Below are positions 28,952 to 60,734 of a stretch of 64,000 bases of DNA, piece after piece. Both the position numbers and the translations under genes were made by a program. The notes under the pieces were generated by a model. It was not told the DNA's origin and searched no databases. It saw nothing but the letters and a program-made list of their open reading frames with translations. Where the stretch lies: assembly GCF_024345975.1 (NCBI RefSeq), contig NZ_JAGQCD010000009.1, positions 1 through 64,000 of the forward strand, in the 5' to 3' direction. The stretch comes from Cyanobium sp. Cruz-8D1. Its GTDB lineage: Bacteria > Cyanobacteriota > Cyanobacteriia > PCC-6307 > Cyanobiaceae. The first letter of the stretch is position 1, and each line of letters opens with the position of its first letter.

Positions 28952-29845
28952 ATGTTCTTCCGCATTCACCACCGGCTCAGCTACACCTACGCACGGCCCG
29001 TTTTCCTGGAGCCCATGACCCTGCGGCTGACCCCCCGTCAGGACGGCAGCCAGAGGATCCTGGAGCACCATCTGCGGCTGGTGGATCCCGCCGCTGGCCT
29101 CACGCGTGTGCTGGAGCCGGATGGCACCGACGCCATGGTGGCCTGGTTCCAGCAGGAGCGGGACCAGCTGACAATCGAGGTGGACATGCTGCTGGAGACC
29201 CTGCGCAGCAATCCCTACGACTGGATCATTACCCACAAGGAGGCCCAACACCTGCCGGTGGACTACCCGGAGGCGGAGGCCTGCTCCCTGGCGGGCTGCC
29301 GGCATGGCCAGATCGATCCGGCCGTCCGTGCCTGGGCCCAGGCCATCGCCGACAAGGTCGAGGGATCGGCCACCGCGTTCCTCGGTGCCCTTGCCGATGA
29401 GATCCACCATGGCTTCCACCATGTGGGCCGGCTGGACGGGGAGCCCATCGCAGCGGCGGACACCCTCGCGACGCTCACCGGAGCCTGCCGGGACACGGCC
29501 GTGCTGTACATCGCGGCCTGTCGCAGCCAGGGCCTGGCGGCGCGGTTCGTCAGCGGCTACTCGATGCACCATCCCCCTGAGGTGAGCGAGCATGAGCTGC
29601 ACGCCTGGGCGGAGGTATATCTGCCAGGGGGGGGCTGGAGGGGCTTCGATCCCAGCCTGGGTCTGGCGGTGGCCGATGGCCATGTGGTCCTGGCCGCAGC
29701 ACCGGATCACCATCTGGCGGCGCCGGTCAGCGGACGTTATCGGGGAACCGGCGTGGGCTCCAGCCTGGCCTACCTGATCCGGCTGCAGGCCGCCTCCAGC
29801 CGCGAGGAACTGGAGGGAACGGCTCAGCCGATGGTCTCGAGCTGA
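28952..29845 (+). CDS. Transglutaminase-like protein (bacterial N-terminal type)
   Basis: The 297-residue protein begins with the beta-rich domain of this family (MFFRIHHRLSYTYARPVFLE, TLRLTPRQDGSQ). The papain-like transglutaminase core follows: catalytic Cys in LTGACRDTAVLY, His in HAWAEVYLPGGGWRGFDPS and the following Asp. Family members are usually peptidases or amidases rather than cross-linkers. It follows the 28574 gene by 3 bases. Two relatives of the same fold lie 25-30 kb away. No signal peptide is visible, so it should be cytoplasmic. Confidence 0.88.
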   Translation: MFFRIHHRLSYTYARPVFLEPMTLRLTPRQDGSQRILEHHLRLVDPAAGLTRVLEPDGTDAMVAWFQQERDQLTIEVDMLLETLRSNPYDWIITHKEAQHLPVDYPEAEACSLAGCRHGQIDPAVRAWAQAIADKVEGSATAFLGALADEIHHGFHHVGRLDGEPIAAADTLATLTGACRDTAVLYIAACRSQGLAARFVSGYSMHHPPEVSEHELHAWAEVYLPGGGWRGFDPSLGLAVADGHVVLAAAPDHHLAAPVSGRYRGTGVGSSLAYLIRLQAASSREELEGTAQPMVSS

Positions 29846-31349: not shown

Positions 31350-32144
31350 TTAACGCGCGAGCCTGAGCTGCCGCGAGCCATTCCCCTGCCCGTGATCAAG
31401 GGAAACGCGGCGCCTCAACTCCGGCAGGCGAAACCATGGCACAGCCGGGTAGGCATGATGCTCCCAGTGGTAACCGAAGTGATAACAAGCCAGTAAGGAG
31501 AGAAAGTGGGAGTAACCCAGACTTTGCACGGCATGGCTGCTGACAGGGAGCGCTGCTTGGCTGCGGTGGGGAAGGTACGTGCCGAAGAGAAACAGCTGCA
31601 ACGAGCTGAGCACCAGCGGCACCATCCAGAACGCGACCACATTCACCGCCCGCGGGGGGTCCAGCAGCACCAACAGGGCTGCTGCACTGATCCAGGTGAC
31701 CAGGAGCAGGCCCAGCTGGTTCCAGGAGAGATAGTTCCCCATGAAACGCACATACCAGCGCAGGGCGCCATCACCGCTGTCCAGCCGGAAATCGGGATCC
31801 CTGGCGCTGCCAGGGGAACGGTGGTGGCGTAAGTGGTGGCGACGGCAGCGGCCAAAGGGCAGGCCGGCGTAGAGCAGCAGGGCCAGACGGCCCAGACCGT
31901 CGTTGAGGGCTGGACGCCCGGGGACCAGGGTGCGGTGCATGGCATCGTGACCCAGGATGAACAGGCCCGTCTGCAGAAACGTGCGCACCGCGATAGCCAG
32001 CAGAATGGCCGCTGGGGACCAGGGGGCCGAATGGGCCAGCAGCAAACCGATGAGGCTGGCCAACCAGCCCCAGAAGATCACCATGCCAAGCCAAAACCCC
32101 CGGCCCTTTTGGGCAGGGGGAACGGAGGAGACCATGGCCTCCAC
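31350..32144 (-). CDS. crtW: Beta-carotene ketolase
   Basis: CrtW adds keto groups to beta-carotene, giving echinenone and canthaxanthin, the carotenoids bound by OCP. The 264-residue membrane enzyme carries the three His clusters of the fatty-acid-desaturase-like fold: GHDAMHRT (about residue 65), RHHLRHHRS (about 103) and YHWEHHAYP (about 221). There are hydrophobic segments between them. It sits between ocp (33 bases) and frp (25 bases) on one strand. The LVPGRPALNDGLGRLAL linker is typical of CrtW rather than CrtR hydroxylase. Confidence 0.95.
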   Translation of the reverse strand: MEAMVSSVPPAQKGRGFWLGMVIFWGWLASLIGLLLAHSAPWSPAAILLAIAVRTFLQTGLFILGHDAMHRTLVPGRPALNDGLGRLALLLYAGLPFGRCRRHHLRHHRSPGSARDPDFRLDSGDGALRWYVRFMGNYLSWNQLGLLLVTWISAAALLVLLDPPRAVNVVAFWMVPLVLSSLQLFLFGTYLPHRSQAALPVSSHAVQSLGYSHFLSLLACYHFGYHWEHHAYPAVPWFRLPELRRRVSLDHGQGNGSRQLRLAR

Positions 32145-32176
32145 CGTGGCGGGATCAGGATGAATTGGAAGGCTCT

Positions 32177-33133
32177 TCAGCGTGCGAATTTGAGCAGTTC
32201 GGCCGGGGAAGCCAGCAGATCGATCGCCACGAAGTAGATCTTGTTGTCGGGATCCAGCAGGAAGCGCCAGGCCACATTCATGCCAACGCCAGCACCGAAC
32301 CAGGGGGTCTGGACTTTCCCGGTGACCTTGATCTGGGTGAAGCCGCCATCAGAAGGCTCGCTCACGCCACTTTCGGGGAGAAGTTTGAGATTCTGGCAAT
32401 CTTCGCGGAAGAAGCGCAGCACGGCATCGGTACCGACGATCGGTCGTTGGAACGGGGGCTGCAGGGCGCCATCGGCAAGGAACAGCTTGATCAGCTGGTC
32501 GAAATCGTTGGCATTGAGCAGATCCATGTAGGACTGGATCGTGGGGTTGTCGATTCCAGCGATCGACACCCTGGTGCGTTGCTCGGGAGCCGTGGGCAGA
32601 ACGATCGGCTCAGCAATGCGATCGACAGCGTCCACCTTGCTGGGGTCGAAGCCCATGTCAACGACGAAGTTGCGCAGAACGGTGATCTGCTGACCGGCAT
32701 CGACTCCCTTGAGCGAGGACAGCACCGAGGCGGCGTTGGCCGACAGCTGATAGCCCTCAGGGATGGGGGCAACGAGTCCTTCCTCCATCCACTCGCCGAG
32801 GCGATACCAGAAGCCAAGTTTGATGTTGACCGACCAGATGGCGTAGGTGCGGCAGATGTCGGTGTCGGCCCTGTTGGCCAGATCCACCATCACCTGGCTC
32901 TGCTCGGCGAAGGTCATGGCCTTGATCCGGCTGAGCACCGGCTCGGCGAACTGCATCCGGGCGGCGCCGGGGGCTGCGATGGTGATGGTCTTGCCCATCT
33001 CGAGATAGGCGAACCAGATCAGCGCCAGCTGGTCCTCCGCGTTCAGCAGAGCAAAGCGGGCGGTGAGGGCGGGCACCACGTCGGCGGAAAGGGTGTCCGG
33101 AAAGATCTGGGACGCCTTTTCGAGCGTGAACAT
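32177..33133 (-). CDS. ocp: Orange carotenoid protein
   Basis: OCP senses blue light and quenches phycobilisome excitation. The 318-residue protein has the helical carotenoid-binding N-domain (MFTLEKASQIFPDTLSADVV, DICRTYAIWSVNIKLGFWYR), an interdomain linker and the NTF2-like C-domain (IDNPTIQSYMDLLNANDFDQ, GVGMNVAWRFLLDPDNKIYF). Length and domain order are canonical for a full OCP, not a helical-carotenoid paralogue. The adjacent frp suggests FRP-regulated OCP1. crtW is downstream. An 8-bp hairpin (33182-33210) lies in the upstream region. Confidence 0.96.
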   Translation of the reverse strand: MFTLEKASQIFPDTLSADVVPALTARFALLNAEDQLALIWFAYLEMGKTITIAAPGAARMQFAEPVLSRIKAMTFAEQSQVMVDLANRADTDICRTYAIWSVNIKLGFWYRLGEWMEEGLVAPIPEGYQLSANAASVLSSLKGVDAGQQITVLRNFVVDMGFDPSKVDAVDRIAEPIVLPTAPEQRTRVSIAGIDNPTIQSYMDLLNANDFDQLIKLFLADGALQPPFQRPIVGTDAVLRFFREDCQNLKLLPESGVSEPSDGGFTQIKVTGKVQTPWFGAGVGMNVAWRFLLDPDNKIYFVAIDLLASPAELLKFAR

Positions 33134-34699: not shown

Positions 34700-35527
34700 T
34701 CAGTGGTGGGGGCTTTTGGAGGTCTCCATCTCCTCGGTAATGACGTGGAATCCTGTGAGCTGGTGATCGCCGAAAGAGCGCAGGAAGGGCACATCCGCCG
34801 CGTCCCGACCCCGGGCGATCAGCACCCGGCCGATGCGTGGGGTGTTGTGGCGGGCATCAAAGACATACCAGCGGTCCTCGAGGAAGGCCTCAAACCAGGC
34901 CGAATAGTCGATCGGATCCGGCAGGGCCTCCACGCCCGAGTAACCCAGGTAGCCGGTGCAATAACGCGCCGGGATGTTGAGGCAACGGCAGAGGCTGATG
35001 GCCAGGTGGGCGAAATCCCTGCAGACACCGCGCCCCTCCCGTAGAGCGTCGTGGGCGGTCTTGTCGCTGCGGGCGGCGCCGTAGTCGAAGCGAAGCTGTT
35101 CATGCACCCAGTCACAGATGGCCTGCACCCGCGCCCAGCCGGGCCGGACCCCACCGAAGCGCCCCCAGGCGACCTGGGCCAGGCGATCGGTGTCGCAATA
35201 GCGGCTGGGGTTGAGATAGGGGTAGGTGACGATCGGCAGCGCCCCCACCGGGCACTCGCCCACATCCGCTGCCACCGGATCGGGATGGCCGTCATCGGCT
35301 ACCACCACCTCAAACCCCAGGGTGGTGTTGCCGGCAGAGGCCATGAAGCGGCAGGCACGGTTGCCGTCGGCATCGGTGAGCACCTCGGCGATACGATCCG
35401 GGCTCAACCACAACCGCTCCGGGCCGCGCCGATCCTCCAGGCGGCTGCCATGGGGATGGACCAGGGCCAGCACCGGTGTCGGGGCCCAGCAGGAAAGAGT
35501 CAGTTCGCAACCGAGCCGGATCAGCAT
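34700..35527 (-). CDS. Transglutaminase-like protein (GVCRDFAHLA type)
   Basis: The 275-residue protein has an N-terminal beta domain and a transglutaminase core. The catalytic Cys is in GRGVCRDFAHLAISLCRCLN, the His/Asp pair in SAWFEAFLEDRWYVFDARHN, with the signature IPARYCTGYLGYSGVE and PRIGRVLIARGRDAADV at the C-terminus. It closely resembles the gene at 55742-56581 but lacks the clustered peptidase partners. Members of this family are peptidase- or amidase-like. It is isolated, with intergenic DNA of 158-204 bases on both sides. Confidence 0.9.
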   Translation of the reverse strand: MLIRLGCELTLSCWAPTPVLALVHPHGSRLEDRRGPERLWLSPDRIAEVLTDADGNRACRFMASAGNTTLGFEVVVADDGHPDPVAADVGECPVGALPIVTYPYLNPSRYCDTDRLAQVAWGRFGGVRPGWARVQAICDWVHEQLRFDYGAARSDKTAHDALREGRGVCRDFAHLAISLCRCLNIPARYCTGYLGYSGVEALPDPIDYSAWFEAFLEDRWYVFDARHNTPRIGRVLIARGRDAADVPFLRSFGDHQLTGFHVITEEMETSKSPHH

Positions 35528-50561: not shown

Positions 50562-52763
50562 GTGCCTACCTCTCACGACTGGAATCTCCTGGAGGCGCAG
50601 GCCCGGACCCTGCGGGATCGGCTCAGCCTGGGCGAAAAACTCGGCCTGCTCGACGGTGACACCCCGTTCTGGGGGGGCTTGGCGGAGATCGCCCTGCACG
50701 ATGCCTCCCACCGCCGCCCCTGGCCAGCCGGGGTGGTGAGCCGCCTGGGCATCGGCGGGTTGCACTTCGTCGATGGCCCGCGCGGGGTGGTGCTTGAAGG
50801 CGGCGCCACCACCTTCCCGGCGCCCATCGGACGCGGTGCCAGCTGGGACATTGATCTGGAGGAAAGGATCGGCGTGGCCATGGCCAAGGAGGCCCGATCC
50901 TTCGGCGCCAATCTGTTCGGCAGCATCTGCGTCAACCTGCTGCGCCACCCCGGCTGGGGCCGGGCCCAGGAGACCTACGGCGAGGACCCGCTGCATGTGG
51001 GCGCCATGGGGGCCGCCGCCAGCCGCGGCGTGCAGCGCCATGCCATCGCCTGCATCAAGCATTTCGCCCTCAACTCGATCGACAGCGCCCGCTTCCGCGT
51101 TGATGTAAGGGCCAGCGAACGGGTCTTGCAGGAGCTCTACCTGCCCCAGTTCCGGGACTGCATCGAGGCCGGGGCCCTGGCGGTGATGAGCGCCTACAAC
51201 AGTGTCAACGGGGCCTGGTGCGGCCAGCATCCCCATCTGCTCCAGGACATCCTCAAGGGGCGCTGGGGCTTTCGCGGCTTCGTGCTCACCGACTTCATCT
51301 TCGGAATCCGCGATGGAGAGGCCGCCATCGCGGCCGGCCAGGACCTGGAGATGCCGTTTCGGATGATCTTCCAAGCCACGCTTCCGGCGGCGGTGGCCGC
51401 TGGACGGGTGCCGATGGCGCGGATCGATGACGCCGTGCTGCGGCTGCTGCTGGCCCAGGGAACGGTGCCCGGGGGCACCTATCCCGTGAGCCTGCGGGGC
51501 TGCCGCGACCACCGTGACCTGGCGCGGCAAGCGGCCACCAGCTCGATCGTGCTGCTCCGAAATGTCGGCCCCGTGCTGCCCCTCAGCGGGATCGGCTCCC
51601 TGGCGGTGATCGGTCCCCTGGCCGACACCGCCAACCTGGGGGACCGGGGCTCCTCCGACACCCGGCCCACGCCGGGGTCGGTGGTGACGCCCCTGGCCGG
51701 CCTGCGGGCGGCGGCGCCGGAGATCAAGCTGCATCACGCCGATGGCAGCGATCTGGCCATGGCCTCGGCTCTGGCGGCCCGCAGCGATGCGGCGCTGGTG
51801 GTGGTGGGTCTGGACTGGCGCCACGAGGGCGAGCACATCCACCCCGGCGACCTCGCTCCGATCCTGAGCCAGGCCCCCCCTCCCGCTGGACTGCTGCGCC
51901 TGGTGGGCCGCCGCCGCTTGCTGCCGTTGTGGTCGCGTCTGACGGCCGCGGTCGCCCAGGTGACACGCCTGGGTTCGGCCCGTGTCGGCGGCGCCTTCGC
52001 CTCGGGTGATCGCACCATGCTCCAGCTTCCTGCTGAGCAGGAGGCTCTGATCCTGGCCGTCGCCGCCGCCAACCCCCGCACGGTGGTGGTGCTGATGGGG
52101 GGCGGAGCGATTCTCTGCGAAGCCTGGCGCCGGCGGGTACCGGCCCTGCTGCTGCTCTGGTACCCCGGCCAGCAGGGCGGGGAAGCCCTCGCCGACGTCC
52201 TCCTTGGACGGGTGTCACCCTCGGGGCGGATGCCCTACGCCGTGCCCACCGATCCCAGCCATCTGCCGCCGTTCGATCCCCGGGCCCGGCAGATCACCTA
52301 CGACCTGTGGCACGGCTACCGGCGGCTGGCACGCCTCGGCCAGCCGCCGGCCTTCCCGTTCGGCTTCGGCTTGTCTTACAGCCACTTCAGCCACAGTGAT
52401 CCGGTGGCCCAGTGGCTCCCCACCCCATCAGGAGCCGAAGGGGCCCTGGAGCTCAGCGTCACGGTGGCGAACACCGGGCCAATGGACGCCGCGGAGGTGG
52501 TTCAGATCTACGCCGAGCCTCCCGGCCGAGCCGTGGAGCGTCCGCGACGCACCCTGGTGGGCTTCCGCCGGCTGAACCTTGAGCCAGGCCAGAGCGAGCG
52601 GGTGGCGATCCCGATTCCGCTGCGGCGTCTCGCCTGGTTTGATGCATCCCGCGACGCCTTCGTGCTCGAAGCTGGTCGCCACCGGCTGCTGGTCGCACGC
52701 CATGCCGAGGACGAAGGGATCGGCGTGGACCTAACCCTCGAGGCCGGGGTGGTGGGCCCCTGA
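50562..52763 (+). CDS. Glycoside hydrolase family 3 beta-glucosidase-like enzyme
   Basis: From the GTG at 50562 the protein has 733 residues. The GH3 barrel reads GIGGLHFVDGPRGVVLEGGA, GVAMAKEARSFGANLFGS, NLLRHPGWGRAQETYGEDPL, CIKHFALNSIDSAR and GFRGFVLTDFIFGIRDGEAA, whose Asp in LTDF is the expected nucleophile. A second alpha/beta domain and a C-terminal fibronectin-type fold (LELSVTVANTGPMDAAEVVQ) follow. No signal peptide is seen. It likely hydrolyses beta-glucosides in the cytoplasm. It converges with the operon at 52780. Confidence 0.92.
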   Translation: MPTSHDWNLLEAQARTLRDRLSLGEKLGLLDGDTPFWGGLAEIALHDASHRRPWPAGVVSRLGIGGLHFVDGPRGVVLEGGATTFPAPIGRGASWDIDLEERIGVAMAKEARSFGANLFGSICVNLLRHPGWGRAQETYGEDPLHVGAMGAAASRGVQRHAIACIKHFALNSIDSARFRVDVRASERVLQELYLPQFRDCIEAGALAVMSAYNSVNGAWCGQHPHLLQDILKGRWGFRGFVLTDFIFGIRDGEAAIAAGQDLEMPFRMIFQATLPAAVAAGRVPMARIDDAVLRLLLAQGTVPGGTYPVSLRGCRDHRDLARQAATSSIVLLRNVGPVLPLSGIGSLAVIGPLADTANLGDRGSSDTRPTPGSVVTPLAGLRAAAPEIKLHHADGSDLAMASALAARSDAALVVVGLDWRHEGEHIHPGDLAPILSQAPPPAGLLRLVGRRRLLPLWSRLTAAVAQVTRLGSARVGGAFASGDRTMLQLPAEQEALILAVAAANPRTVVVLMGGGAILCEAWRRRVPALLLLWYPGQQGGEALADVLLGRVSPSGRMPYAVPTDPSHLPPFDPRARQITYDLWHGYRRLARLGQPPAFPFGFGLSYSHFSHSDPVAQWLPTPSGAEGALELSVTVANTGPMDAAEVVQIYAEPPGRAVERPRRTLVGFRRLNLEPGQSERVAIPIPLRRLAWFDASRDAFVLEAGRHRLLVARHAEDEGIGVDLTLEAGVVGP

Positions 52764-52779: not shown

Positions 52780-53295
52780 TCAGGGGGCCGGGGATGGGGA
52801 GATCGTGGCGCGGCTGTCCAGACGCTGCAGCGTGCCCTTGACCCGCAGGTGGTTGTACCGCTGCAGCCAGATGAAGGGCAGGTTGAACAGGGTCGCGAAG
52901 ATGAGGTTGATCAGCACACCCACCGGCGGTACCCAGAGGGCGGTCACGAGCCAGAAGGGCCAGAGCGCCAAATGCACCAGCTCGGCCCGGCGTGTCTCCT
53001 CCAGCAGGCGCTGCAGGATGGCGCGATCCCGGCCCACCAGGCTGTTTTTGGCCACGCCGCCTGGGAAGGCCGTACCGGCGTCGGGCAGCAGGGATTTCCA
53101 GCGGTGAATGCCGAGCCGTTGCTCAAAGCCCTCCTGACTCTCCGGCCAGGGGCGCCGACCGGTGAGCCAGGTGTCGCGGGCCAGGGCCGACTGGGGCAGT
53201 CGCTGGGCCAGCCAGCCGATCAGCAACGACCACAGCAGCCAACCCAGGCCGCAAGCCAGGACCGCTAGCGCGTCGGAAATCGTCTGCCTTTCCAT
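52780..53295 (-). CDS. CrtO-like acyltransferase (glycosyl-carotenoid acylation type)
   Basis: The 171-residue membrane protein has the family's ARDTWLTGRRPWPESQEGFE, RLGIHRWKSLLPDAG, RRAELVHLALWPFWLVTALW and NLPFIWLQRYNHLR. These fit the glycosyl-4,4'-diaponeurosporenoate acyltransferase (CrtO) family. In Staphylococcus it acylates the sugar of staphyloxanthin. Its gene overlaps the glycosyltransferase stop by 31 bases, so the two are coupled. Substrate in this organism is unknown. Confidence 0.75.
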   Translation of the reverse strand: MERQTISDALAVLACGLGWLLWSLLIGWLAQRLPQSALARDTWLTGRRPWPESQEGFEQRLGIHRWKSLLPDAGTAFPGGVAKNSLVGRDRAILQRLLEETRRAELVHLALWPFWLVTALWVPPVGVLINLIFATLFNLPFIWLQRYNHLRVKGTLQRLDSRATISPSPAP

Positions 53296-54374
53296 TCGAT
53301 TGTTCCGCGCTCAAGATTCAGGATCGCCAGAACGAACACCCCCAGAAAGAACAGCACGGGAATCGGAAAGATCAGGCAGATCCAACCGAAGTCGCCGATC
53401 CGGCGGGTGACCACCAGCAGCTGCACGGCAAAGGCGACGTAGAGGAGCAGGCTGTACAGCACGGAAGCGTCCCCCAGCATCGGCCAGCCCAGCAGGGAGG
53501 CCGGCAGGCACCAGGCCGACCAGAACAGACCGGAGATCCAGAGAACCACCCCGAGCATCCAGAGCCAGCGCACCTCCCCGGCGGCGGTGGCGAAGTTCTT
53601 GGCGAAGCCCACCACCATGTCCTGGAGGCCGCCGGGATACATGCGGTAATCGAGCAGCCCCTGGCCGATGTAAGCGCTCACCCGCAGGCCTGCCTGCTCG
53701 TAAAGATGGCCCAGGAACCAGTCCTCTACGACCTTGCCGGCAACCGCCGCATGGCCACCGATGTGGTCGTAATCGGCCCGGCTGGTGACCATGGCGGGAC
53801 CGAAGGCCACGCCGCACCCCTTCCCCATCGGCACCGCCATCAGCCCCACCAGGTTGAACAGCACCGAGAGCTGCTCGTAGGGCTTCTCGGTGCGGTGGAA
53901 GGGCTGCACCGACACCAGACCACCCAGCTCCTGCTGGGCCGACACGAGACGTCGCAGGAACTCCGGGTGGGGCTCGGTGTCGGCGTCAAGGAAGACCAGA
54001 AGCTCCCCTTCGCTGGCGCGGACGCCATGGTGCAGGGCCCAGGTCTTGCCGCACCAGCCCTCCGCCAGGGGCGGCGGCTGCATCACCCTGACCCCTGCAT
54101 CCGCGGTGATGGCGGCGGTGCGATCACTGGAGTGGTCGTCAATCACGATCACCTCCGAGGGGGTGAGGCTCTGCAGCTGCAGGGCAGAGAGCAGTTTCGG
54201 CAGGGTATGTTCCTCGTTGCGGGCCGGAATCAGCACCGAAAGCGTCGGGTGACCCTGCACCCTGGAGAGCGGCAGGCGCGGCATGCGCAGGCACAGGGCC
54301 CAGCCAAGCAGCCAGCGCACCAGCAGGGAGATGGCCAACAGATCCACGGTCGGCACGGCTGCTAATGCTTTCAA
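53265..54374 (-). CDS. Family 2 glycosyltransferase, CrtQ-like
   Basis: The 369-residue protein has GT2 motifs SVLIPARNEEHTLPKLLSAL, VIVIDDHSSDRTAAITADAG, LVFLDADTEPHPEFLRRLVS (DxD-type) and KVVEDWFLGHLYEQAG. Membrane helices lie at both ends. The neighbourhood with a CrtO-like gene and overall look suggest 4,4'-diaponeurosporenoate glycosyltransferase (CrtQ) or a hopanoid/glycolipid relative. Located 1 base after the hydrolase gene. Confidence 0.82.
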   Translation of the reverse strand: MKALAAVPTVDLLAISLLVRWLLGWALCLRMPRLPLSRVQGHPTLSVLIPARNEEHTLPKLLSALQLQSLTPSEVIVIDDHSSDRTAAITADAGVRVMQPPPLAEGWCGKTWALHHGVRASEGELLVFLDADTEPHPEFLRRLVSAQQELGGLVSVQPFHRTEKPYEQLSVLFNLVGLMAVPMGKGCGVAFGPAMVTSRADYDHIGGHAAVAGKVVEDWFLGHLYEQAGLRVSAYIGQGLLDYRMYPGGLQDMVVGFAKNFATAAGEVRWLWMLGVVLWISGLFWSAWCLPASLLGWPMLGDASVLYSLLLYVAFAVQLLVVTRRIGDFGWICLIFPIPVLFFLGVFVLAILNLERGTIEWKGRRFPTR

Positions 54375-54375
54375 G

Positions 54376-54990
54376 CTAAGGACGCAACAGCTCGTCCACC
54401 AAAGCCTCCAGGGCCGCCGGGTGGGTCAGGAGCTGATGGTGATAGCGCACAGGCAGGTTTTTCCCTGGCCCGATCGGCAATAGGGCCCGCCAGGCCGGCA
54501 TCACCATCAGATCCGGCTCACAGTAAAAACTGCAGCAATCCACGGGTACGAGGGTGGCGAGATGGGCGTTGAGCTCCGCCAGCAGCGGGCTGCCCGTTTT
54601 CAGGTCGGCAATGCCAGCCAGGGGCCAGCGGGGCCAGGGCCCGGCCGTGAGGGTGCCCTGCTGGGGACTGCCCACGCTGATGAAGCGTCGGGTGCGCCGG
54701 TAGCCGCCCAGCCGCTGGATCCAGGTGCGGGCAATCACCCCTCCCATCGAAAAACCCAGCAGATCGATGGGCTGCTCCTGGCCAAAGGACGCGTCGATGT
54801 GGGTGCCGAGCAGGGCAGCCTGCAACGCGATCGGCGTCAGCCCGAACCGATGCGGCAGGCGGGGGATCAACAGGGGGTAGCGGCGCCCTGCCAGCTGGCG
54901 CTTGAGCGGCTCAAACACAGAAGGGGTGTCCAGCATCCCGTGAATCAACACCAGCGGTGGGAAGGGATGGGGCCGATCCTGAAGGGTCAT
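54376..54990 (-). CDS. Lipase-like alpha/beta hydrolase
   Basis: From the ATG at 54990 the protein has 204 residues: PPLVLIHGMLDTPSVFEPLK, IDLLGFSMGGVIARTWIQRL with the nucleophile Ser in GFSMGG, and RRFISVGSPQQGTLTAGPW. It matches the triacylglycerol-lipase/PGAP1-like hydrolase group. The catalytic His is probably in the C-terminal YHHQLLTHPAALEAL. There is no signal peptide. It lies between Anbu (26 bases upstream) and the glycosyltransferase (1 base). Confidence 0.85.
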   Translation of the reverse strand: MTLQDRPHPFPPLVLIHGMLDTPSVFEPLKRQLAGRRYPLLIPRLPHRFGLTPIALQAALLGTHIDASFGQEQPIDLLGFSMGGVIARTWIQRLGGYRRTRRFISVGSPQQGTLTAGPWPRWPLAGIADLKTGSPLLAELNAHLATLVPVDCCSFYCEPDLMVMPAWRALLPIGPGKNLPVRYHHQLLTHPAALEALVDELLRP

Positions 54991-55016
54991 CGATGGCCCG
55001 TGGCGCTGGATGTCAC

Positions 55017-55745
55017 CTACCAGACCAGCTCCGGCAACTCCCGGAACACCTGCCGCACGCCCACGCTCCACTCCCTGCTGAGGTCCTTGAAATAGGCATC
55101 ACCCTCACTGAATCGGAGCCGCTGGGTGATCTCGAGGCGATCCCGCTCGTAGAGGAGCAGGTCGATCGGCATCCCCACCGACAGGTTGCTGCGCATGGTG
55201 GAGTCGAACGACACCAGCACACACTTGGCCGCTTCCGCCAGGGTGGTCTCGGAATGGATCACACGGTCGATGATGGGCTTGCCGTATTTGGCCTCACCCG
55301 TCTGCAGAAACGGCGTGTCCTCGCCGGCTTCGATGAAATTCCCCTCGGCATACATGCGGAACAGCCTGGGCGCTTCCCCCTTGATCTGCCCACCCACCAG
55401 GAAGGACGCATTGAAACTGGAGCCGGACGCCTTGAGGTAGGGGCCATCCCGCTCCTCGATCGCCCGCACCGCATCCGACACCAGGCCCATCACCTCAAAC
55501 ATGGTCTGCGCCGTCCAGACAGTGGGCTCCCCATCGCCGGCTTCGGCCCGCTGGCGCAGCAGGCCGATGACCGCCTGGGTGCCGGCCAGGCTGCCGGAGC
55601 TGAGCAGCACGAGCACCCGATCGCCCTTGCGCTCAAACACCGTCATCTTGCAGAAACTGGCGAAATCGTCCAGACCCGCATTGGTGCGTGAATCAGAGGC
55701 GAAGACCATCCCCCCCTCCAGCAGCACGGCCACGCAATAGGTCAT
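55017..55745 (-). CDS. Anbu proteasome-like peptidase
   Basis: The 242-residue protein starts MTYCVAVLLEGGMVFASDSR. After Met removal Thr2 would be the N-terminal nucleophile, with Asp18 and Lys33 of the proteasome-fold catalytic group (DSRTNAG, FCKMTVF). GSSFNASFLVGGQIKGEAPR and LFRMYAEGNFIEAGEDTPFL are diagnostic of the bacterial Anbu family (ancestral beta subunit). Anbu assembles into a helical or ring-like oligomer. It is coupled by ATGA to the upstream transglutaminase. Confidence 0.92.
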   Translation of the reverse strand: MTYCVAVLLEGGMVFASDSRTNAGLDDFASFCKMTVFERKGDRVLVLLSSGSLAGTQAVIGLLRQRAEAGDGEPTVWTAQTMFEVMGLVSDAVRAIEERDGPYLKASGSSFNASFLVGGQIKGEAPRLFRMYAEGNFIEAGEDTPFLQTGEAKYGKPIIDRVIHSETTLAEAAKCVLVSFDSTMRSNLSVGMPIDLLLYERDRLEITQRLRFSEGDAYFKDLSREWSVGVRQVFRELPELVW

Positions 55746-56581
55746 GCCGTCCACACCTGAAACGACTCCAGCTCCGACGGGCCGAAGGTGGTGGTGAGGG
55801 CCACATCCGCCGCATCCCGGCCTCGGGCGATCAGGATCCGGCCGATCCGGGGCGTGTTGTTGCGCGGGTCGAACACATGCCAGCCATCGCCGAGATAGGC
55901 CTCGAACCAGGCATGGAAGTCCATGGCCGTATGGGGCGGCGGCACCTTGATGTCGCTCAGATAACCCGTGCAGTATCGCGCCGGGATGTTCATGCAGCGG
56001 CACAGGGCGATCGCCAGATGGGCGAAGTCCCGGCACACCCCTTCCCGGCTTTCGAGGGTCTGCAACGCCGTCTTTGTCGGGCTCGAACGGCCGTAGCCGA
56101 AGCGCACGTGCTGGTGCACGAAATCGCAGATCGCCTGCACCCGGCCCCAGCCGCCGGGAATCCCCTCGAAGCGCGACCAGGCCATGGGCGAGAGCAGGTC
56201 CGATTCGCAGAAGCGGCTGGCCAGAAGGAACAGCAGCGCTTCTTCCGGCAGCTCCTCCACCGGCTGCTGCACAAGCCATGGCAGAACGGGATCGGGCTGG
56301 CCGGAATCAGCCACCAGACCGCTGCCCCGCAGTCGCAGCACGCCGGCCGGTGCCACCAGTCGGTGGCAACGGTTGCCGTAGGAATCCACGTACAAGCGCA
56401 GCGGAACTTCCGGCTCCACCTGGAGCCGGTCGGCCTCCAGCAGATCGGCGGAGCGACTGGAATGCACGCCCAGGGTGACGATCATCGGAGTCGCCGCCGT
56501 TAAGCGCAGGGCCACGTCAAATCCCACCCGTATTTCAAGGGGTTGGTTCGGCAGCGGCGTGGCCTGTTGCAATGTGTCCAT
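55742..56581 (-). CDS. Transglutaminase-like protein, Anbu-associated
   Basis: The 279-residue protein has an N-terminal beta domain (MIVTLGVHSSRSADLLEADR) and the core with Cys in SREGVCRDFAHLAIALCRCM, His in DFHAWFEAYLGDGWHVFDPR and IPARYCTGYLSDIK. The C-terminal PRIGRILIARGRDAADVALT matches the relative at 34700-35527. It directly precedes Anbu with a 4-base overlap. In other bacteria such proteins accompany Anbu with ATP-grasp and alpha-E proteins, but those partners are not in this window. Confidence 0.92.
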   Translation of the reverse strand: MDTLQQATPLPNQPLEIRVGFDVALRLTAATPMIVTLGVHSSRSADLLEADRLQVEPEVPLRLYVDSYGNRCHRLVAPAGVLRLRGSGLVADSGQPDPVLPWLVQQPVEELPEEALLFLLASRFCESDLLSPMAWSRFEGIPGGWGRVQAICDFVHQHVRFGYGRSSPTKTALQTLESREGVCRDFAHLAIALCRCMNIPARYCTGYLSDIKVPPPHTAMDFHAWFEAYLGDGWHVFDPRNNTPRIGRILIARGRDAADVALTTTFGPSELESFQVWTA

Positions 56582-56584
56582 GCA

Positions 56585-57400
56585 TCACCCTAAAGAGCGT
56601 GGGCAAGCCTGAAGCGGCGGAAATCCCTCCGCCAGGGCGACCTCCAGCACCTCGGCGAGGCGCTCCGCCCACTCCTTCTGGCCGGCCTCGGTGGCCAGCA
56701 GGTCCTGGCGAATCTCCAGCTCCACGTGGGGAATCTGGCGCCGCTCACCGTGCACCACCAGCGTGTGGTCGCTCGCGTCGCTGACCGCATAGGGCTCGTT
56801 GTCTCCCACCTGCAGACCCTGTTCACGTTCCAGCTCCTGGTGGATCCGCCGGGCCAGGCGCTCATCGCGCCCGTACAGCACGCCCACATGCCAGGGTCGC
56901 TGCTGAGTGCCGAGCACCGGTGTGAAACTGTGCAGCGTCACCAGCACGCTGGGCTGGCCGCGCCTCCGCCGGGCCTCCAGTTCGGTGGCGATGCGGTGGT
57001 GGTAGGGGTGGAAGAGCGCGTCGAGCCGCTGCTGCCGCTCGGCGGGGGAAAGGTTGGCGTTGGCGGTGATAGCGACAGCCTCGCTGTGGCTGATGATCGA
57101 ATCCGGTGCCTGCGGCGGCCGGTTGGCATCAACCACCAGCCTTGAGTAGTTGTGCAGGATCAGGAAGGCATCGAGCCGCTTCGAAAGCCGCGAGGCCAGC
57201 CCGGCCACGCCCAGATCCCAGGCCACGTGGGTGTCAAGCAGCCGCTCATCCAGACCAAGGCCGACCAGACGACGGGGGATGGCGCGGCCAGCGTGGTCGG
57301 CCGTGAGCAGCACGGCCGAGCCACCGGCGGGGCTGACAATCCGGAAGACGGCCGGATCAGCGGCCCCCAGGAGGGGTTCTGGTTGCACCGGTGACTCCAT
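56585..57400 (-). CDS. N-formylglutamate amidohydrolase-like protein
   Basis: The 271-residue protein has SAVLLTADHAGRAIPRRLVG, DTHVAWDLGVAGLASRLS, ILHNYSRLVVDANRPPQAPD and VTLHSFTPVLGTQQRPWHVG. It ends with PHVELEIRQDLLATEAGQKE. These are the zinc amidohydrolase motifs of the HutG-type N-formylglutamate amidohydrolase family. It lies 3 bases from the transglutaminase and 52 bases from the next. It may hydrolyse amide or peptide bonds rather than formylglutamate. Confidence 0.9.
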   Translation of the reverse strand: MESPVQPEPLLGAADPAVFRIVSPAGGSAVLLTADHAGRAIPRRLVGLGLDERLLDTHVAWDLGVAGLASRLSKRLDAFLILHNYSRLVVDANRPPQAPDSIISHSEAVAITANANLSPAERQQRLDALFHPYHHRIATELEARRRRGQPSVLVTLHSFTPVLGTQQRPWHVGVLYGRDERLARRIHQELEREQGLQVGDNEPYAVSDASDHTLVVHGERRQIPHVELEIRQDLLATEAGQKEWAERLAEVLEVALAEGFPPLQACPRSLG

Positions 57401-57452
57401 GATCCGAAGCGGTTAGGCAGGCAAGCACGGCCGCTGGTGCTGAGGGTCCAAG

Positions 57453-58319
57453 CTATGTCGTGGAGCCTTGGAGTTCGGTGATCCAGACACCCACCTCCAT
57501 CGATAACAGCGCAGCTCCGCAGAAACTGCCGGCAATGGGAGGCACAGACTCGGGCCTTCGGGCCACCGCGACAGGGATGTGGGTGTCGCCCACAATCACG
57601 CCGTGGGTTGGATCAAAGCCCTTCCAACCAGCCCCCGGCAGAAACACCTCAGTCCAGGCGTGCGTGCTTCCGGCCTCCTCCGGTGGAAGCGCGGTGAAGC
57701 TGTAACCGCTGACGAAACGGGCAGCGAATCCGAAACATCGGGCCGCCTCCATGAACAGGAAGGCGATATCACGGCAGGTTCCAAAGCCGCTGTCGAGGGT
57801 TTCGGCGGAGGTCTGGACGCCAGGCTCGTCGCGCTTGCGGTAGGAGACCCTCTGGTGAGCCGCCAGATTCAGGCGTTTCAACAGGGTGTAGCTCTGGATG
57901 ATGTCGCCCGGCTGCCAGACCGTTGCCGTCCACTGCTGCAAAGCCCGGCATGGTTCCGCGGTCGCTTCCGCCAGATAGGCCCCCAGAACGGGGCGGTCCC
58001 TGGGAACGTAGTCGAAGGGATAGGAAACAGCGTCATCATCGACAAGAAAGTCGAGTGGAACACGGTCGTATTGCTGGATGATCAGATTACTTTCGATCAG
58101 CAATCTTTCGGCAGCGACGCTGAATGAGGCCATGGCAAGACAATTACCCTCAACATCACGATGCCAGCGCAGCTTCGCCGCCGGGCGAATGGAGAGCGAA
58201 GAGGTTTCGATGCGCAGATCATGGCCCTCCCGAGGACGCAGACGCAGCGTATGGGTGCCGAGTCGGACAGGGGCGCTGTAGGTGTAGGTCGTGAGATGGA
58301 GGATGTTGAAGCGTCTCAT
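57453..58319 (-). CDS. Transglutaminase-like protein (N-terminal-domain type)
   Basis: The 288-residue protein has the N-domain (MRRFNILHLTTYTYSAPVRL, HTLRLRPREGHDL) and the transglutaminase core: Cys in DSGFGTCRDIAFLFMEAARC, His in STHAWTEVFLPGAGWKGFDP. It is the same architecture as the 28952 gene and distinct from that at 55742. It is codirectional with NFGase, Anbu and the GH13 gene. Confidence 0.9.
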   Translation of the reverse strand: MRRFNILHLTTYTYSAPVRLGTHTLRLRPREGHDLRIETSSLSIRPAAKLRWHRDVEGNCLAMASFSVAAERLLIESNLIIQQYDRVPLDFLVDDDAVSYPFDYVPRDRPVLGAYLAEATAEPCRALQQWTATVWQPGDIIQSYTLLKRLNLAAHQRVSYRKRDEPGVQTSAETLDSGFGTCRDIAFLFMEAARCFGFAARFVSGYSFTALPPEEAGSTHAWTEVFLPGAGWKGFDPTHGVIVGDTHIPVAVARRPESVPPIAGSFCGAALLSMEVGVWITELQGSTT

Positions 58320-58341
58320 CAGCTCGCCATGCGGGGGTTGA

Positions 58342-60125
58342 TCATTGGGAATAGATCAAGACGCTATACGGCCCAACGCGGAAACGGGCGTGATAGGGAA
58401 AGCCATCCCACGCTCCTTGAACGGCTTCAACATCACCGCTTTGGCAGCCGTCGAAGCACTCACTGTAGCCGTGCCAATCACTGTTGAAGCGAAGTTTCCA
58501 TTCCTTGGCCGCCGGCAAGCCCACGATGTAGTCCTCTTGGGGCTGATGAAAGAAATTGGCGATCACCACCACATCATCCCCGGGCCCTCCTTGATCCCAG
58601 CGGTGGAAGGCCAGCACATTTCGCACGCTATTGAGATGAAAAACCTGGCTGAACTGACCACAAAGGCCACGGGATAGTCCCTCACCATTGAGCCGGAGAC
58701 GGATCAGATCCCGGTACAAACGCACAAGGCCGCAAAACTCCTCACGCTGGTCCCAGTCAACGGGAACCGTATCGCGGAACCAGCCGCCCTCGAGAAACTC
58801 CTGACCTTGAAACAGCATGGGAATACCAGGTGCCGTGAACACCATGGCGGCAGCCAGCGTGGAACGCTTCTGGGCATGCCAGCCCGTGGGATCAGCTGGG
58901 TTGACATCCTGGGGGATCCGAGACTGTCCGTTGGCAACGTCGTCATGGGATTCGCTGTAGATCACACGCTCGAAGGCATCGTCGTTATAGCGATAGAGGA
59001 GGGCGTCCCGGATACTCTCGAGGGCACGGTCTTCATCCTGGGAGGCAATCACGGCCTGACGGATCGGTTGGACAAAGTGAGGATCCCATTGGGATCCAAA
59101 CCCTGCCCCACCAGCCCCCACATCCTTGGTCAACCAATCATTGCTGCGCAGGTCTTCAGCAATGGTGATCCGCCCCGGGTGCAGCCGGGCCACGGGTTCA
59201 TTGATGGCCTGAAGCATACTCCAGCCATCGGGGATCTCTTCGGTTCCGGCTTCGCCGATGTTGCGGATGTAACCAGTACTGTCGAATCGAAGGCCATCGA
59301 GGTGATACTCCTCAAGCCACATACACACGTTGTCAAGGATGTACTGACGAACTTCCCCTCGGCCATAGTCGGGCCGCGTTTCCCCCCAAGGCGTTTGCGC
59401 ACGATCGTCATTGTAGAAATAGATTCCTCCCTTGCCATTCTCAGACCAACCGTCGAATCTCCAAAGGTCAAGGTCACTGGGGCCAAAGTGATTGAAGACA
59501 ACGTCCAGAATCACAGCAATGCCAGCCTGATGGGCGCGTTTGATGAACCGCTTGAAACCCAGGGAGCCGCCATAGTCGGAATCGACGGCAAAGATATGGG
59601 ATGGGTTGTAGCCCCATGAGCGTTGGCCGGCAAACTGACCGACTGGCATGATCTGAATGGCATTGATGCCAAGACGTTTCAGGTGCTGCAGCCGTGCCGT
59701 GATGGAATTGAATCGGCAGGCTGATTGAGATCGTCATCATTAAATGTGCCGACATGCAACTCATAGACGACAAGCTCATTCCAGCGCATCATGGAGAAGT
59801 CATCACCATCCCATGAAAAGTCAGGATCGTGAATGATGGCATTACCGACCGAGTTGGTCACTTCACGGGCATAGGGGTCGATGCGCTTCATGACTCCCCA
59901 CGGCGTACAGAGCTGGTATTTGTAGTGGTCGCCGATCTTGGCACTCTCAATGTTGATGGACCAGAAGCCACGCGGCTCTGAATGCATCGGATGGGCGTCG
60001 CCATCCCAGTCGTTGAAGGAACCGATCACCGAGACCCTCTCGGCATGGGGCGCCCAGACACGAAACGCCACGCCGTCAGAGGAGGGAAAGGATCCCATCC
60101 CTGGATGGATCGGCTGCTTTTCCAT
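58342..60125 (-). pseudogene. GH13 glucan-branching-type enzyme with one frameshift
   Basis: From the ATG at 60125 an N-terminal CBM48-like part (FRVWAPHAERVSVIGSFNDW) leads to HVGTFNDDDLNQPAD, then the frame runs into a stop near 59679. The catalytic barrel resumes in another frame (FNSITARLQHLKRLGINAIQ, then MPVGQFAG). It contains DGLRFDSTGYIRN (nucleophile Asp), TIAEDLRSND (acid Glu) and SESHDDVANGQ. It ends at 58342. One C missing between 59714 and 59715 (GCCGATTC for GCCGGATTC) would give PAGFNSITARL. It may be a true mutation or a sequence error. The intact protein would be about 594 residues. Confidence 0.88.
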
Positions 60126-60515: not shown

Positions 60516-60734
60516 ATGTCCAACAAAGCTGATGCCGCAGCCAAAGAGGCGGAAGGCAAACTTGAATCGGCCCTGGGTGAGCTGACTGGCGACACTGAAC
60601 ACCAGATCAAGGGCAAAGCCAAGCAGGTTCAGGCCTCGGCCATGAACGCGGCAGAAGAGTTGAAGGATGGCGCCAGGTCATTGGCCCAGAAGGTCAGCGA
60701 CGCTGCCGCGAAACTGGCTGACGGAAAGGGCTGA
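60516..60734 (+). CDS. CsbD-like small stress protein
   Basis: The 72-residue protein, MSNKADAAAKEAEGKLESAL, then GELTGDTEHQIKGKAKQVQA, is the CsbD family, charged, helical and stress induced in many bacteria. Function unknown. TTGACA and a direct repeat precede it. The base composition is lower in GC than the neighbours, and it is set apart from them. Confidence 0.9.
   Translation: MSNKADAAAKEAEGKLESALGELTGDTEHQIKGKAKQVQASAMNAAEELKDGARSLAQKVSDAAAKLADGKG

Follow-up and report, generated by a model that had tools for sequence, protein, structure and literature searches.

An Anbu-transglutaminase-amidohydrolase gene trio beside a putative acyl-glycoside cassette in Cyanobium sp. Cruz-8D1

Introduction

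Anbu is a proteasome homologue for which structures have been solved, though to our knowledge its function and substrate are not known. In the classical Anbu operon, four genes encode an ATP-grasp protein, an alpha-E protein, a transglutaminase (TG) and Anbu. Here, we describe an anbu gene in a 64,000-nucleotide stretch of the genome of Cyanobium sp. Cruz-8D1 (contig NZ_JAGQCD010000009.1, positions 1 to 64,000), referred to below as the window, where it lies in a run of eight genes at positions 52780-60125. Like the classical operon, this locus has the Anbu Thr, Asp and Lys residues and an adjacent TG gene, but a gene for an N-formylglutamate amidohydrolase-like protein (FGase) takes the place of the ATP-grasp and alpha-E genes, which are found at a urease locus.

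Other parts of the cluster resemble further described systems. In Staphylococcus aureus, the end steps of staphyloxanthin synthesis are carried out by CrtQ, a GT2 glycosyltransferase (GT), and CrtO, an acyltransferase, and the rest of the pathway consists of CrtM, CrtN and CrtP-type C30 carotenoid genes. A GT2 gene likewise overlaps a PF18927 acyltransferase gene in the window, but here lipase and GH3 genes are attached and the GT scores under the CruG and HpnB cut-offs. The FGase shares PF05013 with the N-formylglutamate deformylase HutG, but falls far under the HutG equivalog cut-off, and its nearest solved relative is not HutG but 2odf (E 4.1e-42), the hypothetical protein Atu2144. Finally, PMC5491218 describes ATP-grasp, alpha-E and TG genes of Burkholderia cenocepacia H111 that are, like urease, NtrC- and sigma54-dependent. 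The same kinds of gene, with the same nitrogen and urease link, occur on contig C12 of the present genome, but there the cluster is apart from Anbu. An association of alpha-E, ATP-grasp and TG domains with urea domains is noted in PMC3597751, and PMC5666114 and PMC6376114 cite work of others in which Anbu was raised under nitrogen limitation.

Results and discussion

Proposed role of the locus

We tentatively favour, without considering it probable, the explanation that an amidoligase system, dispersed and linked to nitrogen, has Anbu, TG and FGase as its amide-cleaving arm, and that in one lineage this arm has been joined to an acyl-glycoside cassette. From gene context and family chemistry, the first three genes (module A: FGase, the TG designated TGa, and Anbu) would cleave and recycle Glu/Gln-type amide or isopeptide conjugates. 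A conjugate would be opened by the TG and the Anbu Ntn-hydrolase, and the released N-acyl-glutamate-like end would then be trimmed by the FGase-like amidohydrolase, which we take from its family membership to be zinc-type. The making arm, composed of a circularly permuted ATP-grasp protein, alpha-E and another TG, would be kept apart at the urease locus. The lipase, GT and CrtO genes with a convergent GH3 gene (module B) would build and break an acylated glycoside, and in one cyanobacterial lineage module A would have been placed next to module B, together with GH13, a second TG gene (TGb) and csbD, which is divergent.

The FGase-TGa-Anbu trio

Among the 151 genomes of the family set, window-type Anbu (at least 70% identity) was found in 20 genomes and at 21 loci including the window, with two loci in one genome. 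In co-occurrence sets assembled by hand, window-type Anbu and FGase were both present in 19 genomes, Anbu only in one, FGase only in none, and neither in 131; at 15 of the 21 loci, FGase is encoded beside Anbu. Four g35 genomes (L080-L083) carry FGase-TGa away from window-type Anbu, and at two of these loci (L082 and L083) the pair is divergent from, and 1.7-2.0 kb from, an Anbu paralogue of the type found on contig C47.

The best 80 of 282 Anbu matches, here called named loci, included 32 that are cyanobacterial by title and 48 that are not. Within 3 kb of Anbu, FGase was found at 22 and TG at 24 of the cyanobacterial loci, and the corresponding numbers for the non-cyanobacterial loci were 24 and 41, with both present at 23. 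Outside cyanobacteria the trio was seen in Pseudomonadota, Actinomycetota and one Binatota metagenome-assembled genome (possibly a stray contig). PF05013 was present in the five non-cyanobacterial FGases checked, and one TG was also checked against Pfam.

The window Anbu matches the solved Anbu chains 5loy_A (designed; E 4.4e-89) and 5nyj_A (E 8.4e-81). Its T2, D18 and K33 (counting Met) are conserved in 97% or more of 124 rows, and TGa has Cys, His and Asp motifs. The catalytic residues of Anbu are given as Thr1, Asp17 and Lys32(33) in PMC6376114. On sequence grounds, module A is an old, co-inherited trio of predicted amide-bond enzymes. The FGase-Anbu link may already have been described in Iyer 2009 or Valas and Bourne 2008, which lay outside our literature search; that search returned no paper naming both formylglutamate and Anbu, and none joining transglutaminase, formylglutamate amidohydrolase and operon. 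It did return 11 papers that name both Anbu and glutaminase, PMC6376114 among them.

The urease-locus genes and the Anbu paralogues

The usual ATP-grasp and alpha-E partners of Anbu had been reported as missing when the window was read from its sequence only. This is correct for the window, where neither was found among the Pfam-scanned genes (about half of the called genes), but not for the genome, where both are encoded on C12. There, the only alpha-E match in the genome (41112-42038) lies with CP_ATPgrasp_2, TG, glycogen phosphorylase and DUF2126 genes, beside urease genes (L008:3518-13929). Of the 86 other genomes with alpha-E, 20 were sampled; with this genome's own locus added, the alpha-E/ATP-grasp/TG loci included a ureC match in 17 of 21 cases and Anbu in none. 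Glycogen phosphorylase (GlgP) accompanies the alpha-E cluster at 8 of the 21. Conversely, ATP-grasp was found near Anbu at none of the 32 named cyanobacterial loci and at four of the 48 others, and alpha-E at three of the 48.

The motif GTAN8TAC, the NtcA consensus, lies upstream of the ATP-grasp gene at 5 of the 21 loci versus 0.033 expected per locus (P 5e-4), a background that was taken from whole loci and understates chance in AT-richer upstream DNA.

The genome has three Anbu matches, in the window and on contigs C47 and C76. Next to the C47 gene (L060:10322-14986) is a gene for a PF04960 glutaminase, and a PF03616 Na+/glutamate symporter is encoded nearby. A glutaminase neighbour was seen at 6 of 20 fetched Anbu-paralogue loci, as well as at L082 and L083. 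The gene adjoining the C76 anbu (L061:9830-11643) encodes the heat-shock repressor HrcA, and a trpB-like gene is close by; several other genomes share this layout. Together, the FGase-TG-Anbu trio, the glutaminase beside another Anbu and the urease-locus amidoligase point to Glu/Gln amide chemistry that would be under nitrogen control, and the search for an Anbu substrate is thereby narrowed to something testable in laboratory strains.

Several observations weigh against the amide-cleaving role proposed for module A and its nitrogen link. These include the limit just given on the motif background, the modest share of paralogue loci with a glutaminase, and the hrcA context of the C76 gene. Upstream of the module A and GH13 genes, GTAN8TAC was found in 0/42 cases for FGase, 0/17 for GH13, 0/50 for TGa and 1/63 for Anbu, and it is absent from the entire window. 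Alpha-E was found in 68 genomes that lack window-type Anbu, and window-type Anbu in one genome, G005, that gave no alpha-E match. The co-occurrence counts are confounded by shared descent, of which their Fisher P values take no account, and the non-cyanobacterial loci, being the nearest Anbu relatives and in many cases short contigs, describe the window Anbu type only. The FGase scores 29.8 bits against the HutG equivalog TIGR02017, for which the cut-off is 278.75. Furthermore, PMC6376114 reports that no peptidase or amidase activity was detected for Anbu.

A more extensive form of the proposal, which we regard as speculative and quite improbable, is a dispersed, nitrogen-linked picocyanobacterial amide-conjugation cycle that would combine the urease-locus amidoligase arm with several Anbus, of which two or more would each have a Glu/Gln-amide hydrolase of its own as partner (FGase-like with TG for one, glutaminase for another), and in one lineage would act on an acylated glycoside, leading to a peptide-bearing glycolipid by way of TG, GT and CrtO.

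The lipase-GT-CrtO cassette

With a threshold of E 1e-40 for GT, GT and CrtO were both found in 39 of the 151 genomes, GT only in one, CrtO only in none, and neither in 111. The two genes are no more than 200 bases apart in 32 of the 39 and separated in seven. Their distribution relative to window-type Anbu was looser. Anbu and GT were both present in 16 genomes, Anbu only in 4, GT only in 24 and neither in 107, and the corresponding figures for Anbu and CrtO were 16, 4, 23 and 108. An adjacent GT-CrtO pair occurs in 18 genomes without window-type Anbu.

At six loci away from Anbu (L089-L093 and L098), lipase, GT and CrtO genes are convergent with a GH3 gene, and at the remaining fetched GT loci one or more of the four is missing or apart. 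A lipase gene is near GT without Anbu at L084, L089-L094, L096, L098 and L099. In genome G048, TGb, lipase, GT and CrtO are encoded together without Anbu (L084), and FGase, TGa and Anbu on another contig (L059). The DD, DAD and ED residues of GT are conserved in 97% or more of 37 rows, and the S (GFSMGG-type), D and H residues of the lipase are also kept. This composition suggests that module B is equipped for both the assembly and the breakdown of an acylated glycoside. A carotenoid as the substrate of GT and CrtO is unproven and is suggested by family names only.

In a sample of the phylum, CrtO was found in 6 of 244 genomes, and an adjoining GT in all three that are outside the family; in one of these (L207), a TG gene follows GT-CrtO. 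Elsewhere in the window (31350-33133, minus strand), a gene for a CrtW-like ketolase, under its NCBIfam cut-off, adjoins the gene for an orange carotenoid protein (OCP).

Linkage of the two modules

The sequence-only reading treated the eight genes as a unit, to be refuted if the linkage was not conserved in related genomes; conservation was found when this was checked. GT-CrtO lies beside window-type Anbu in 8 of 20 genomes and at 8 of 21 loci, five from the genus of the window and three from g37, and at the 32 named cyanobacterial loci GT and CrtO are near Anbu in 13 cases and lipase in 11. The full eight-gene order is kept in four further genomes of the family, and three more keep six of the eight genes, without lipase and TGb; the linkage is thus inherited and more than a chance arrangement. 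Within the family set, the window's genus is alone in having lipase and TGb beside window-type Anbu, at 5 of the 21 loci. Two genomes of this genus (G062 and G148) have GT-CrtO but neither window-type Anbu nor FGase.

In a tree of 32 GT rows, including one odd long-branch row (L094_6903), a clade of 21 rows (support 100/99) contains four unlinked GTs besides the full set of 17 Anbu-linked ones. Within this clade, L101, L042, L043 and L105 have GTs that fall together with three unlinked ones (100/99), whereas the Anbus of the same four loci group with that of the window (98/98). This pattern suggests that exchange of GT-CrtO at the locus took place separately from Anbu. As a whole, the evidence suggests that two older gene sets came to lie side by side, and not that one new pathway arose.

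That the cluster is mere neighbourhood, a stress-gene island of CsbD, TG, GH13 and Anbu that gathered unrelated cassettes and was kept by descent, is the best surviving alternative, though we think it rather unlikely. CsbD-like open reading frames (ORFs) are present at L084-L086, at four of the 20 Anbu loci from the family and at 7 of the 32 named cyanobacterial loci. Consistent with such an island, the GC content is 0.64-0.69 for the genes from CrtO through FGase and lower for TGb (0.608) and GH13 (0.563), as it is for csbD, and the linkage label needs only two to three changes on the trees, which is compatible with a single origin. However, co-occurrence of FGase and Anbu is near perfect and crosses phyla, and module A is therefore not explained as mere neighbourhood.

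It had also been proposed that the eight genes form a joint pathway, in which the cluster would build and trim a lipid or carotenoid that carries a peptide, a sugar and an acyl group, with TG and FGase acting on the amide and GT and CrtO adding sugar and fatty acid to a putative substrate common to both modules. The conserved Anbu-GT-CrtO linkage fits this proposal, as does the OCP gene, which in three genomes of g37 is 3.8-4.9 kb away from CrtO. A joint role of the modules is best supported by the presence of TG near GT where Anbu is absent: a TG gene lies within 3.4 kb of GT at 4 of 14 GT loci from the family that have no window-type Anbu nearby (L084, L085, L086 and L096) and near GT at one of three loci from other cyanobacterial families (5 of 17 overall), compared with none of 20 loci with Anbu paralogues. 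This makes an association of TG with the acyl-glycoside genes plausible. A single pathway is nevertheless unlikely, given the genomes with GT or CrtO but no window-type Anbu and the four with Anbu but no GT, the independent exchange of GT-CrtO, the GC break between FGase and TGb, and the lack of a carotenoid family call for GT.

Similarly improbable is a protein-quality trio, in which Anbu would degrade TG-crosslinked or modified proteins under stress and FGase would take off formyl or acyl ends, for although Anbu is related to the proteasome and has CsbD, or for one paralogue HrcA, as a neighbour, PMC5666114 and PMC6376114 record no known AAA+ partner and no peptidase activity.

Composition of the eight-gene cluster

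Re-reading of the ORFs and comparison with Pfam bore out the gene order, strand and spacing initially assigned to the cluster (Table 1). From GH13 to CrtO, the intergenic distances are 22, 52, 3, -4, 26, 1 and -31 bases, and are exact with the listed starts; the lipase-like gene may instead begin further upstream, at a GTG codon at 55071. The exception is GH13, which is not a single frame.

Table 1. Genes of the cluster and its flanks. Pfam identities are matches over the gathering cut-off.
Gene product	Positions	Strand	Match	Module
GH3 beta-glucosidase-like, convergent with cluster	50562-52763	+	PF00933 + PF01915	
CrtO-like acyltransferase	52780-53295	-	PF18927, 85.6 bits (cut-off 27.3)	B
GT2 glycosyltransferase, TTG start	53265-54374	-	PF00535, 82.4 bits	B
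Lipase/thioesterase-like alpha/beta hydrolase	54376-54990	-	PF12697 + PF02089 on longer frame	B
Anbu (window type)	55017-55745	-	PF00227; solved Anbu chains	A
Transglutaminase-like TGa, 4-base overlap with Anbu	55742-56581	-	PF01841, 84.7 bits	A
FGase-like amidohydrolase	56585-57400	-	PF05013, 160.5 bits (cut-off 28.9)	A
Second transglutaminase-like TGb	57453-58319	-	PF08379 + PF01841	
GH13 with CBM48, GlgB/TreZ-like, frameshifted	58342-60125	-	PF00128 + PF02922	
CsbD-like, divergent from cluster	60516-60734	+	PF05532, 42.2 bits (cut-off 40)	

The residues that we take to be catalytic in Anbu, TGa, TGb, the lipase and GT are all present, and the GT2 protein has membrane-like segments as judged by eye. 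TGb is probably attached to module B or to the stress part of the locus. A scan for promoters and terminators found sites no more frequent than in shuffled sequence, and an alignment of six upstream sequences inspected by eye revealed no clear operator. Seven of the eight proteins (all but GH13) were compared with PADLOC, and the absence of any match led us to set aside a defence system.

The GH13 gene is split by a one-base frameshift into two ORFs, 59679-60125 and 58342-59649, and comparison with three relatives places a one-base gap near 59718. The gene is open over 594 codons in five of six relatives checked, and G090, the remaining one, carries a frameshift of its own that is different. 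The frameshift in the window may be an assembly error or may mark a dying gene. The protein was under every family cut-off shown in a comparison with GlgB and TreZ. GH13 was also rejected as a general partner of Anbu, being found at 12 of the 32 named cyanobacterial loci but at only one of the 48 others.

Additional TG genes were seen outside the cluster. One is a match on contig C13 (L009), which was not used in the analysis, and another (window positions 28952-29845, plus strand) has Bact_transglu_N and Cys, His and Asp motifs. The third (34700-35527, minus strand) is a TGa paralogue, 49% identical, near the OCP gene and a CpcG-like linker gene. It has Ser in place of the catalytic-type His (YSAWFE instead of FHAWFE) and may therefore be inactive.

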